DNA from: a virus
Length of the DNA stretch: 26,981 bases
Virus record (IMG/VR): IMGVR_UViG_3300033388_001660
Span: 1 to 26,981 of that record
Strand: one strand, 5' to 3'
Under the pieces are notes generated by a model, which was not told the origin of the DNA, ran no database searches, and worked only from the letters and a program-made list of their open reading frames with translations. Both the position numbers and the translations under genes were made by a program. Below, one piece after another: positions 2,710 through 26,981 of the stretch. How positions within the stretch are numbered: position 1 is the stretch's first letter; every line of letters begins with the position of its first letter.

Positions 2710-3017
2710 TACCCGCACTTGCCACTCTGACCTCAGATATTGAGATAAGACAAGAAACCATTGCTTTGCTTGATGAGCGTGACTCATTAAAAGCTGATAT
2801 GAGGCGCTTAAGAACAGAAGAAGCACGTATAATCAGGATAACGGCAGAAATAAAAAGAAAGTCTCGTATTGAGCTGGAAAGGCTTGTTGAAATAGCCAAC
2901 GGCCTAACGGAGAAGCTTGCTCCGCTGACTAATCGCAGAATAGGTCTGACAGTGGGGGAGGATGCAAAATACGTGACTAAAGTGGCTCATAATCGCTCTC
3001 AAAGGATGCGAGGGTGA
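2706..3017 (+). CDS. coiled-coil hypothetical protein
   Basis: 103 residues from ATG 2706 (ATGA overlap), with GGAAGGGG upstream. An upstream in-frame TTG at 2676 lies inside the previous gene and is less likely. Residues 14-75 are strongly charged and helical (DIEIRQETIALLDERDSLKA, then a long Arg/Glu helix), predicting a coiled coil. No catalytic motif is visible. It stops over the GTG of the resolvase gene, so it is co-translated with it; whether it acts with it is unknown. Confidence 0.7.
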   Translation: MIPALATLTSDIEIRQETIALLDERDSLKADMRRLRTEEARIIRITAEIKRKSRIELERLVEIANGLTEKLAPLTNRRIGLTVGEDAKYVTKVAHNRSQRMRG

Positions 3018-3346
3018 AGATAAACATTAAGCCTCTGAGTATAAACACTGCATTTCAGGGTAAAAGATTTAAAACCCATGCTTATAAGGCTTATGAGAAA
3101 GAGGTCATGCTGAAATTAAAGCCGATGGAAATACCTGATGGAGATTTGGAAATAGCCATGCAGCTAGGCTTTAGCAATAAACTAAGCGACATCGATAACC
3201 CGGTTAAACCGTTTATCGACATTTTACAGAAATACTACGGATTCAATGATTCACGGGTTTACGCCTTAGTTTTAATGAAAAGAATCGTACCAAAAGGGCA
3301 AGAGTATATTAGCTTTTCAATACATAAATGCTTTAAGGGGGAATGA
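3014..3346 (+). CDS. rusA: RusA-family Holliday junction resolvase
   Basis: 110 residues from GTG 3014, overlapping the preceding stop. RusA enzymes are dimeric endonucleases that cut four-way DNA junctions and, in phages, resolve branched DNA before packaging. The diagnostic core is SDIDNPVKPFIDILQ: D59, D61, N62, K65 and D69, followed by D79 in GFNDSRV. This matches the family's D-x-D-N-x-x-K arrangement with a second-strand Asp about 18 residues on. Length (about 110-120) fits. The N-terminal KPLSINTAFQGKRF is the usual substrate-side strand. Position close to terminase genes is typical. Confidence 0.88.
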   Translation: MKINIKPLSINTAFQGKRFKTHAYKAYEKEVMLKLKPMEIPDGDLEIAMQLGFSNKLSDIDNPVKPFIDILQKYYGFNDSRVYALVLMKRIVPKGQEYISFSIHKCFKGE

Positions 3347-17015: not shown

Positions 17016-17069
17016 CGAATGGTTTTAACGGCAAAACCAAGAACGCCTCAAGTAATGCCGGAGGAAATC

Positions 17070-17570
17070 ATGCGCGAACTAATCAAACAAGATGGCTCTT
17101 TAATTTTAAATGAGGTCGCTGTAAACGATAAAAAAGGTCGTTTAATTGCGCGCGCTAAAATTGAAGAATATCAAAAAGCCCTTCAAAAAAACCTTGGCAG
17201 TGAATCCGGTGAAATGGATTCAATCAACAACAATGGTTTAAAAGAATACTTTGTTAATAACTCTTACGTCAGAGAATTATTTATCCCTAAAGGTGTAACA
17301 ATAGTTAGCCATATCTGGAAAGTGGAGCGCCTATGGATAATCGCAACAGGCGAAGTTACGTTCACGACTGAAATGGGTACACGTAGAGTAAAAGCACCTT
17401 ATACAGAAGTTGTGCCGCTTGGTTCTAAGGTTGCGCTGTATGCGCATGAAGATACTTTGTGGTTTGCTATAACAGGCACGAAGGGAAAAAATACTGATGA
17501 AGTTAAAGCAGATGTTATTGCTGATGATTATAGTGGATGTAATTATCCCTGGCTGGAGATAGTTAAATGA
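17070..17570 (+). CDS. cupin-like phage virion-region protein
   Basis: 166 residues from ATG 17070, which has GGAGGA four to five bases upstream; in-frame ATGs at 17019 and 17055 would add 17 or 5 residues but lack a ribosome site. The core reads YVRELFIPKGVTIVSHIWKVERLWIIATGEVTFTTEMG, then PYTEVVPLGSKVALYAHEDTLWFAI. This is the single-stranded beta-helix (cupin) pattern of a phage family in which a K-x-E/H pair and H-E-D-T are conserved. The usual metal His are reduced here (K-V-E-R-L, H at YAHED). Function in phages is unknown; it lies between tail and ejection genes. Confidence 0.7.
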   Translation: MRELIKQDGSLILNEVAVNDKKGRLIARAKIEEYQKALQKNLGSESGEMDSINNNGLKEYFVNNSYVRELFIPKGVTIVSHIWKVERLWIIATGEVTFTTEMGTRRVKAPYTEVVPLGSKVALYAHEDTLWFAITGTKGKNTDEVKADVIADDYSGCNYPWLEIVK

Positions 17571-24388: not shown

Positions 24389-24703
24389 ATGTCAATATTA
24401 CTTATTACAGAATATAAGGAAATGGCTTATGCTGGTGGTGAATTACAAATACCGCAAGAACCACCGGTTGCTGTGCAAGAAGTCGCATTCACCACAAGTA
24501 CAGCAAGTGCAGCATTAAATTCAGAAACTCGCTTTGTAAGTGTTCAATTAAATTCTAACGGACATATTCAGTTTGGGACTGCTCCTACAGCCGTTAATAC
24601 AAGTGGAACAGCGTCAAGCCGGATACATGAAGCAAATGCCGTATCTTTTCACGGTGTTCCTAAAGGCGCATCTTATAAAATTGCAGCGGTAGACGCAGCA
24701 TAA
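24389..24703 (+). CDS. small beta virion protein near the receptor-binding genes
   Basis: 104 residues from ATG 24389, with AAAGGAG upstream. SILLITEYKEMAYAGGELQIP followed by PVAVQEVAFTTSTASAALNSETRFVSVQLNS and GHIQFGTAPTA, ending VPKGASYKIAAVDAA, follows a pattern I recognise in small phage proteins located near tail or structural genes, with a T-x-F-V-x-V-x ... F-G-x-x-P-T-A core. It is a beta-sandwich type protein of unknown function. Confidence 0.75.
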   Translation: MSILLITEYKEMAYAGGELQIPQEPPVAVQEVAFTTSTASAALNSETRFVSVQLNSNGHIQFGTAPTAVNTSGTASSRIHEANAVSFHGVPKGASYKIAAVDAA

Positions 24704-24725: not shown

Positions 24726-24794
24726 ATGAAATTCCCCCCTCATTTTTCACTAGAAGAATTAACGCGCTCTCAAACAGTATTGAGGAAGTTATGA
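24726..24794 (+). pseudogene. remnant of M15-type peptidase endolysin (N-terminal 22 codons)
   Basis: A 22-codon frame at ATG 24726 reads MKFPPHFSLEELTRSQTVL and ends at TGA 24792-24794. H-F-S-L-E-E-L-T-R-S-Q-T is the usual N-terminus of phage M15_3-type D-Ala-D-Ala peptidases; their zinc-binding H-x-D and later His are absent because the frame ends here. The stop overlaps the amidase start (ATGA). The rest of the peptidase appears to have been replaced by the amidase. It may still serve to couple amidase translation. Confidence 0.65.
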
Positions 24795-25240
24795 GAAACA
24801 TTAATTTGATTGTTGTTCATTGTTCAGCGACTAATCCACATATGGATATTGGTGCGGCTGAGATTGATGAATGGCATCGCGCTAAAGGCTGGGCGAAAAT
24901 CGGCTATCATAATGTTATCCGCAGAAATGGTGCTTTAGAGCATGGCAGAGATTTAGCAGAAATTGGCGCACATGCTTACGGGTTTAACCGTGATTCCCTC
25001 GGGATTTGTATGATAGGCGGGGTTGATTCAGAAAATAACCCTCAAGATAACTTCACGCCGGAGCAATACACAACTTTAAGAGGGTATATTGATACTATGC
25101 TAGACGTATTCCCTGCTAAATTAACAGGTCATAGAGATTTATCTCCTGACATTAATGGTGATGGAGTTATAGAGGAATTTGAGTGGTTGAAATCATGTCC
25201 ATGTTTTGACGTAGTTTCTTGGTATAACAATAAGGACTGA
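24791..25240 (+). CDS. N-acetylmuramoyl-L-alanine amidase (T7-lysozyme-like endolysin)
   Basis: 149 residues from ATG 24791; GAGGAAG upstream is inside the remnant ORF. Amidase_2 enzymes cleave the bond between N-acetylmuramic acid and L-Ala of peptidoglycan. Zinc ligands are H10 (VVHCSAT), H114 (GHRDLSPD) and C136 (KSCPCFDV), with Y39 (GYHNVI) and K134 in the positions of T7 lysozyme's Tyr46 and Lys128. Length is close to T7 lysozyme (151). There is no signal peptide or SAR helix, so export to the wall needs a holin. SPDINGDGVIEEFEW, between H114 and C136, is typical of this subfamily. Confidence 0.95.
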   Translation: MRNINLIVVHCSATNPHMDIGAAEIDEWHRAKGWAKIGYHNVIRRNGALEHGRDLAEIGAHAYGFNRDSLGICMIGGVDSENNPQDNFTPEQYTTLRGYIDTMLDVFPAKLTGHRDLSPDINGDGVIEEFEWLKSCPCFDVVSWYNNKD

Positions 25241-25244
25241 TATA

Positions 25245-25589
25245 ATGGTAGAAAAAAAACGAGTCGATGATGCATTTTTAAGGCGCGTAGCTGGTGCGCT
25301 ACTTATAGCCGCAATAGCTTCCGCAGGTGGATGGATTTGGACGTTAGCTTACCTTCAATCACAAGTTAACACTAATACTGCTGGTGTAGAAGAAATTAGA
25401 GCACTCCAAAGAACCATGAACCATATTAATGAAGGGGTCGTGACTTTGGTTGAAAATAGCAGAATTAGAAATGAATTAATGCAAAAGTACTCAGACAGAC
25501 AAGATTATATATTCGGCGAACAAAAAAGACGCACATCAACCATAAAGCGATCTAATGAGCATATGGACAACAGGAGCATCCACAAATGA
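25245..25589 (+). CDS. single-pass membrane protein of lysis cassette
   Basis: 114 residues from ATG 25245. A short basic N-terminus (MVEKKRVDDAFLRRV) precedes one hydrophobic helix (about 15-37, ALLIAAIASAGGWIWTLAYLQ), then a polar helical region (VNTNTAGVEEIRALQRTMNH) and a basic C-terminal end (KRSNEHMDNRSIHK). It lies between the amidase and the spanins, so a role as holin partner, antiholin or phage membrane regulator is possible. No family is recognised. It overlaps the next gene by 4 nt. Confidence 0.65.
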   Translation: MVEKKRVDDAFLRRVAGALLIAAIASAGGWIWTLAYLQSQVNTNTAGVEEIRALQRTMNHINEGVVTLVENSRIRNELMQKYSDRQDYIFGEQKRRTSTIKRSNEHMDNRSIHK

Positions 25590-25771
25590 AACGACTATTA
25601 TCATCAACCGTATTCCAGTTTAGCTTTTTGATCCTGCTGGTGGGGGCGCTTGCTGTTATCTATTCAGATGTTACGTGGGCGCAATGGTTTGACCAGGCTA
25701 AATACTATGTAGGCATTTACGCCACTAAAGAGGGTGTAAAATACGGCGCAGAGGCATACAAAGGTGAATAA
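25586..25771 (+). CDS. 61-residue membrane protein, candidate holin
   Basis: 61 residues from ATG 25586 (ATGA overlap). A single hydrophobic helix spans about residues 9-27 (FQFSFLILLVGALAVIYSD), followed by an amphipathic stretch with WAQWFDQAKYYVGIYA and a charged end. Small size, one membrane helix and place between amidase and spanin make it the better holin candidate of the two membrane proteins, but one-helix holins are a minority and homology is not established. Confidence 0.55.
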   Translation: MKRLLSSTVFQFSFLILLVGALAVIYSDVTWAQWFDQAKYYVGIYATKEGVKYGAEAYKGE

Positions 25772-26045
25772 ATTTTTAATCGGAGCAATAGGCATAGCTT
25801 TATTGATCGCGGTTGTAGGGTGGTTTTCTTACAAGGCTGGCGTGAACTCAGAAATCGCCGCAGGGCAAAAGATTATCGCTGATTATCAAGCAAAACAAAG
25901 AGAAATGGTTGAAGAACTCGAACATTTCAAAATGAAACGTGAGGTGATTTATCGTGACAAAATTAAGATTATTAAAGAAGTTGTCGATCCTAGCGGGTGC
26001 ATTGATACTAATGTTCCTAACAGCGTCTTGCAGCAGCTCAAATAG
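25764..26045 (+). CDS. inner-membrane spanin subunit (Rz-like)
   Basis: 93 residues from GTG 25764, overlapping the previous gene by 8 nt. One membrane helix (about 3-22, KFLIGAIGIALLIAVVGWFS) anchors a periplasmic coiled coil (about 30-72, IAAGQKIIADYQAKQREMVE), ending CIDTNVPNSVLQQLK. This is the i-spanin layout. With the o-spanin it fuses inner and outer membranes at lysis. The o-spanin gene starts inside its last third in another frame (25954), as in lambda Rz/Rz1 relatives. Confidence 0.88.
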   Translation: MNKFLIGAIGIALLIAVVGWFSYKAGVNSEIAAGQKIIADYQAKQREMVEELEHFKMKREVIYRDKIKIIKEVVDPSGCIDTNVPNSVLQQLK

Positions 26046-26196
26046 AGTCGTTCTCCCTGCTAGCTATCTGACAGTAGACTGCACAAAAGTCACCTTAACG
26101 GGCGTTACATGGCGTGACGTGGCTGAACATGCGGTAACTCAAAAGAAGTCTATTGAAGAATGTACCTCAAGAATGAGGAAAATTAGAACTCAATAG
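25954..26196 (+). CDS. outer-membrane spanin lipoprotein (Rz1-like)
   Basis: 80 residues from GTG 25954, with GAGGTG seven bases upstream. A basic N-terminus and a hydrophobic signal (LSILAGALILMFLTASC) end in a lipobox-like LTASC with Cys26 as lipidation site; Thr at -3 is a relaxed lipobox. The mature part has about 55 residues (SSSNRVVLPASYLTVDCTKV). It overlaps the i-spanin for 92 nt and extends about 150 nt beyond, a partial-overlap (not fully embedded) arrangement. It lies convergent to a minus-strand gene. Confidence 0.85.
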   Translation: MTKLRLLKKLSILAGALILMFLTASCSSSNRVVLPASYLTVDCTKVTLTGVTWRDVAEHAVTQKKSIEECTSRMRKIRTQ

Positions 26197-26634: not shown

Positions 26635-26820
26635 TTATTTCATCTGGCGATATTCGACCATTAAAGAGCTTACTTTAGATTCCAGCTCTGCTATTTTCGC
26701 TCTTAAGGCGGACTCTCTGTAAGAAACTGTTTCTTTTAGTAAATCAAATTCTGATTTACCCATCTCATGTCCTGTATTATTGAACCACTCGCTTAGTGTT
26801 TTGAATTTTGGTTCACTCAT
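26635..26820 (-). CDS. 61-residue coiled-coil hypothetical protein
   Basis: 61 residues from ATG 26820 (minus), with a consensus AAGGAGG ribosome site a few bases upstream. A polar N-terminus (SEPKFKTLSEWFNNTGHEMG) is followed by a helix and coiled coil (ALRAKIAELESKVSSLMVEY). It overlaps the upstream partial gene by 4 nt (ATGA) and is 18 nt from the DUF551-like gene. It is not recognised. Confidence 0.65.
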   Translation of the reverse strand: MSEPKFKTLSEWFNNTGHEMGKSEFDLLKETVSYRESALRAKIAELESKVSSLMVEYRQMK

Positions 26821-26981
26821 ATAACCTCCTTAATAATCCCGTCTTTAATAGCTAAGAGGTCGCACGCCTTTGTTCCAGCCCCACCCTCACCTACAGAAAT
26901 AATGTGATGACAGTCTCCTGCTGGCTCCACGCCCGTTAAAACGCAAGGCAGAGTCTTAACCCATTTTCTGTACTTCTTATT
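26817..26981 (-). CDS. HNH/zinc-type small protein, C-terminal part (5' cut by window edge)
   Basis: A minus-strand frame enters from the right edge and ends at TGA 26819-26817 (54 residues visible). It has KKYRKWVKTLPCVLTG, then a GDCHHIISVGEGGAGTKACDLLAI run. Cys, Cys-His-His and the G-G-x-G-T-K-x-x-D turn are what small phage HNH-type or DUF968-like domains show, but the second metal cluster that usually follows (C-x-x-H-H) is missing, as the protein stops after KDGIIKEVI. It may be C-terminally truncated or belong to another family. Its last codons contain the ribosome site of the next gene. Confidence 0.5.
   Translation of the reverse strand, partial: NKKYRKWVKTLPCVLTGVEPAGDCHHIISVGEGGAGTKACDLLAIKDGIIKEVI

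Follow-up and report, generated by a model that had tools for sequence, protein, structure and literature searches.

A 17-codon M15_3 peptidase stub before an amidase gene: the probable trace of an endolysin exchange in a viral lysis cassette

Main finding

In a viral metagenome contig of 26,981 nucleotides (IMG/VR record IMGVR_UViG_3300033388_001660, here called the window), an endolysin of the M15_3 peptidase type has very probably been replaced by an amidase of the T7 lysozyme type, with a stub of 17 codons left behind. The stub opens a leftover ORF of 22 codons on the plus strand (24726–24794), which translates as MKFPPHFSLEELTRSQTVLRKL and whose TGA overlaps the amidase ATG at 24791 in an ATGA. 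The exchange of lysis enzyme that the first-pass annotation had proposed is supported by the M15 remnant itself, by the sharpness of the junction and by a full M15 gene at the corresponding place in a relative, contig L012.

The M15_3 remnant

The remnant proper comprises codons 1–17 with the start codon (MKFPPHFSLEELTRSQT; 24726–24776, plus strand), and was recognised by nucleotide identity, blastn, an M15 profile and tblastn. Of these 51 nt, the window shares 45 with the M15 gene of L012 and 44 with that of a second contig, L126, and the two full genes agree with each other at 44; the remnant is therefore as similar to either gene as these are mutually, after which identity is lost abruptly – a pattern that supports an exchange. 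In blastn, no stretch of DNA links the window and L012 more strongly than the first 50 nt of the frame, which match the L012 gene at 90% (E 5e-12).

Protein-level searches lead to the same family. When the 22-residue peptide was compared by tblastn with 50,697 phage records, all 12 matches fell at the starts of endolysin or M15 genes, one of them in a record annotated only as ‘hypothetical protein’. In four of six inspected records the match starts exactly at the annotated gene start; in the MEP301 record it begins three codons into the annotated gene, and in SE2 it lies ten codons downstream of the annotated start, an offset that may reflect a difference in start-site annotation. When every frame of the window and of 87 loci with related amidases was searched with a profile derived from 12 M15 protein sequences, this ORF alone was recovered (profile match at positions 1–21, E 1.8e-5), the next-best matches having E > 2. 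Taken singly, the peptide is a weak match to PHROG 894 (phrog_894; E 0.087), aligning to profile positions 44–63; position 44 also marks the first residue of the complete M15 proteins from L012 and L126. A search of plasmids with the peptide gave no match.

The start of the frame thus carries the N-terminal FTLEELTRSQT segment of Peptidase_M15_3, and the zinc-binding and catalytic core (SxHxxGxAxD ... H) is absent from it. As the frame is only 22 codons long and the profile search found no further M15 piece in the window, it is a remnant rather than a member of the family: compared with Peptidase_M15_3 endolysins (PF08291 / phrog_894), it retains the first 17 codons and has lost the zinc-binding and catalytic part. 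The first-pass annotation had matched the 22-codon frame to the N-terminal motif of M15_3-type peptidases; at the nucleotide level this stands for codons 1–17 (24726–24776) and not for all 22, with homology to M15 genes possibly extending to an AGGAA at 24783–24787.

The amidase and its cassette

The gene whose ATG lies under the leftover stop – correctly described from the outset as a complete amidase – encodes the replacing enzyme, an Amidase_2 endolysin of 149 aa (24791–25240, plus strand). It matches PF01510 with E 1.6e-12 (48.3 bits against a curated cut-off of 26) and PHROG 822 (phrog_822) with E 3.5e-57, and its first residue aligns with the start methionine of relatives from the contigs L007, L025 and L036. 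H10, Y39, H114, K134 and C136 are all present in an H, Y, H, KxC pattern, at what we take to be the positions of the zinc-binding and catalytic residues of T7 lysozyme. Within the T7-lysozyme-type Amidase_2 endolysins (PF01510 / phrog_822) it is a complete member with nothing unusual about it besides its upstream junction. A GAGGAA at 24782–24787 (plus strand), read from the sequence as its probable Shine–Dalgarno site, sits within the final codons of the leftover ORF and is separated from the ATG by 3 nt. When the joined region was compared with cultured phages by blastn, matches were obtained to the amidase part only.

The surrounding genes, all on the plus strand, form a compact lysis region. 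Upstream of the exchanged slot lies a gene for a protein of 104 aa (24389–24703), for which family searches gave no convincing match. Downstream, only 4 nt separate the amidase stop from the ATG of a membrane protein of 114 aa (25245–25589), which is followed by a small protein of 61 aa with a hydrophobic N-terminal stretch and no family match (25586–25771), an Rz-like spanin, the inner-membrane subunit (25764–26045; phrog_8821 Rz-like spanin, E 2e-4), and an Rz1-like spanin lipoprotein with a nested start (25954–26196; PF23793 LysC, E 1.9e-11; phrog_456, E 2.1e-11).

The breakpoint

An alignment across the 5' end of the amidase, the comparison that the first-pass annotation had suggested, shows a sharp switch: against the L012 gene, identity falls from 45/51 to 6/18 nt. 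Over codons 18–23 the window retains 6–7 of 18 nt with the L012 and L126 genes, which still share 17 of 18 with each other. This drop past codon 17 places the end of the old gene between 24776 and 24787, that is, 4–15 nt before the amidase ATG, and defines a breakpoint interval of 24777–24787 (plus strand), so that the 5' junction can be read to within about a dozen bases. Inside that interval, the AGGAA at 24783–24787 is common, in register, to the M15 genes (codons 20–21) and the amidase Shine–Dalgarno site; a crossover at these 5 nt of microhomology may have joined the two genes, although the coincidence is only suggestive.

Relatives with a full M15 gene

The M15_3 proteins of L012 and L126 begin MKFPPHFTLEELTSSQTATRNEIDN... 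and MKFPPHFSLEELTRSQKATRNEIDN..., respectively, and match PF08291 with E 4.4e-19 and 1.2e-18. In L012, the M15 stop overlaps (TAATG) the start of a 113-aa gene whose product is 37% identical to the 114-aa membrane protein of the window (E 8e-11; 39% in the alignment). A full M15_3 gene, sought in relatives as the state before the exchange, is therefore found directly in front of the membrane-protein homologue: the L012 peptidase and the window amidase precede homologous genes, and hence occupy the same slot with unrelated enzymes. Neither L012 nor L126 has an amidase beside its M15 gene.

Three other genes are common to L012 and the window; their products are a head-closure protein (26%), a short tail-fibre protein (53%) and, encoded beyond the lysis region, a DUF968/HNH protein. 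L126 shares another gene with the window (3014–3346, 65%). The window, L012 and L126 phages are mosaic relatives drawing on one gene pool. L012 is the sole syntenic relative found and its backbone is distant: the window portal protein had no detectable relative in either L012 or L126, nor in any other contig compared. Viral-contig searches with the 114-aa membrane protein alone or with a 699-aa virion protein alone recovered no relatives, a search with an alignment of the membrane protein again returned only the L012 contig, and no match was obtained for the 114-aa protein among cultured phages. An alignment of the tail protein at 17019–17570 brought in 20 further contigs, among which none but the L012 contig had the same lysis slot; no close relative showing the state just before the exchange was present among the contigs found. 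This short tail-fibre-like protein recurs at 49–60% identity in several otherwise unrelated viral contigs (L105–L109), and its gene apparently spreads singly.

A proposed course of the exchange

The ancestor would have carried a full M15_3 peptidase endolysin directly before the gene for the 114-aa membrane protein, as L012 does. Recombination would then have swapped the M15 gene from about codon 18 to its end for an amidase of the T7 lysozyme type, which would have brought its own Shine–Dalgarno site and start codon, and the first 17 M15 codons would have remained as a non-functional remnant, presumably of no consequence even where translated. Like the old endolysin, the new one would cleave peptidoglycan during lysis, but its target would be the MurNAc-L-Ala amide and not a peptide bond. 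That the M15 gene was the ancestral one here is the probable direction; the fragment and the amidase could, however, have arrived together from a donor in which they were already fused, in which case the exchange took place outside this lineage.

The replacement of an M15_3 endolysin, wherever it occurred, is probably recent. At three codons the fragment differs from both M15 genes and all three differences are synonymous (P 0.02 under neutrality), as are six of the seven differences from L126 (P 0.002 under neutrality), a signal that rests on few changes, three of them private to the window. Mostly synonymous changes suggest that most of the divergence dates from the time when the fragment belonged to an intact M15 gene, and that the truncation followed not long ago; that the peptide is still under selection is less likely than a recent truncation.

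Scar or leader

Had the 22-codon peptide accompanied amidases in many phages, it would have been better understood as a functional leader than as a scar. Such conservation was sought and the scar reading held: in the search of all frames with the M15 profile, no M15 fragment was found at any of the 87 loci of related amidases, of which 81 extend 200 nt or further upstream. Conversely, a scan for the DNA pattern of M15 starts in 2.9 million viral contigs and a bacterial genome collection – where the pattern demanded a G after ACN, narrower than intended, so that the bacterial negative is a weak one – returned 12 distinct loci, all with a full-length M15 gene. With no M15 piece at the amidase loci and no truncation at the pattern loci, the arrangement in the window is the only one of its kind found.

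Use as a leader would nonetheless concern present function and is compatible with an origin as a scar. Ribosomes might begin at the old M15 start, read the 22 codons and re-initiate at the overlapping amidase ATG, a coupling that the first-pass annotation had also raised and that we consider unlikely without dismissing it. It would draw on the ATGA overlap of the leftover stop with the amidase start, on the weak AAGG site that precedes the leftover start and on conservation of the fragment at the amino-acid level, as well as on a weak predicted hairpin (24768–24787) in which CUCUCA from the M15 part pairs with UUGAGG at the amidase Shine–Dalgarno site and which a translating ribosome would open. 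Yet the predicted fold is no more stable than those of shuffled sequences (z = 0.8), which led us to reject the idea that the junction forms a special RNA structure; the amidase has a good Shine–Dalgarno site of its own, making coupling unneeded; and recent truncation accounts for the conservation equally well. Overlaps of 4 nt of the ATGA type are moreover frequent in the window (eight gene pairs), so that the one at the junction needs no special cause, and the arrangement recurs at none of the 87 related amidases.

A broader proposal, that selection keeps the M15 5' end in its amidase context, either for coupling, as a leader, or for recombination, as a conserved handle, seems improbable; were the handle version true, amidase and M15 cassettes could swap in and out of one slot. 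Between the L012 and L126 M15 genes, the 5' 50 nt are the best-conserved stretch of DNA (44/50), followed by a block near the 3' end (43/50), with interior 50-nt blocks at 30–39/50, and the conserved gene ends could serve as homology handles for exchange.

Other origins of the junction

Phages can carry tandem lysis genes, and an ancestor with M15 and amidase genes in tandem, followed by a deletion that fused the M15 start before the amidase, would yield an identical final sequence. We nevertheless judge this route decidedly improbable, as the neighbourhoods of the 87 amidases contain no M15 gene and the M15 genes of L012 and L126 have no adjacent amidase.

An assembly chimera that joined an M15 phage to an amidase phage is conceivable, the contig being a metagenomic virus record, but very improbable. 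The gene after the amidase is the homologue of the gene after M15 in L012, so that two false joins within one cassette would be required; the junction shares at most 5 nt, far below an assembler overlap, and fragment, amidase and flanking genes are alike in G+C (0.37–0.41). Chance resemblance to M15 starts, conceivable for so short an ORF, is refuted by the blastn E value, by the placement of all 12 database matches at endolysin or M15 starts, and by a control in which 150 random 51-nt segments of the window reached at most 33/51 against L012 and L126, compared with 45/51 for the remnant, and its probability is next to nil.

Relation to known exchanges

Endolysin genes are reported to undergo extensive horizontal transfer (PMC12596118), and in lactococcal phages and prophages the natural exchange of endolysins of different types at coinfection has been shown experimentally (Oechslin et al. 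2022, PMC9371310). There, as in the window under the preferred reading, an endolysin is swapped for one of another catalytic type and the rest of the genome is kept; the lactococcal exchanges, however, use long homologous flanks and take the holin along, whereas the 5' junction in the window lies inside the old gene and leaves the 17-codon stub. For mycobacteriophage lysins, intragenic or illegitimate recombination has been proposed (as cited in PMC9371310), and the junctions likewise lie within lysin genes; there, domains are recombined into working chimeras, unlike the stub in the window, which lies in a different reading frame from the complete enzyme that follows it.

The window is thus a well-documented, cleanly resolved instance of already known endolysin swapping, the unusual detail being the M15 stub in front of an amidase. 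Since the principle of lysis-module exchange is established, this is essentially an ordinary trace of modular phage evolution, albeit a clear one, caught with its 5' junction still legible. It suggests a route by which an enzyme of different chemistry might enter a compact lysis cassette – a join at or close to a Shine–Dalgarno site, ahead of an intact start codon, with the incoming gene supplying the signal for its own translation – and it warns annotators that such a short ORF is a remnant rather than a leader gene.

Other junctions and frames in the window

A second junction of the same design lies on the minus strand, between a DUF968/HNH nuclease gene (26817–26981; PF06147, E 8e-11) and the gene at 26635–26820. 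Homology of the nuclease gene ends after ...KACDLL, before the CxxCH motif; the leftover frame terminates on the start codon of the following gene, again in an ATGA, the AAGGAGG of that gene lies inside the leftover, and a homologue in another contig (L021:8417–8740) is full length. Elsewhere, the frame at 180–746 has a long C-terminal run of low complexity, made up of Ala, Tyr and Asp (AYAADADAYAAAAAAYAAY...), and is overlapped by a Leu/Met-rich frame at 562–774.
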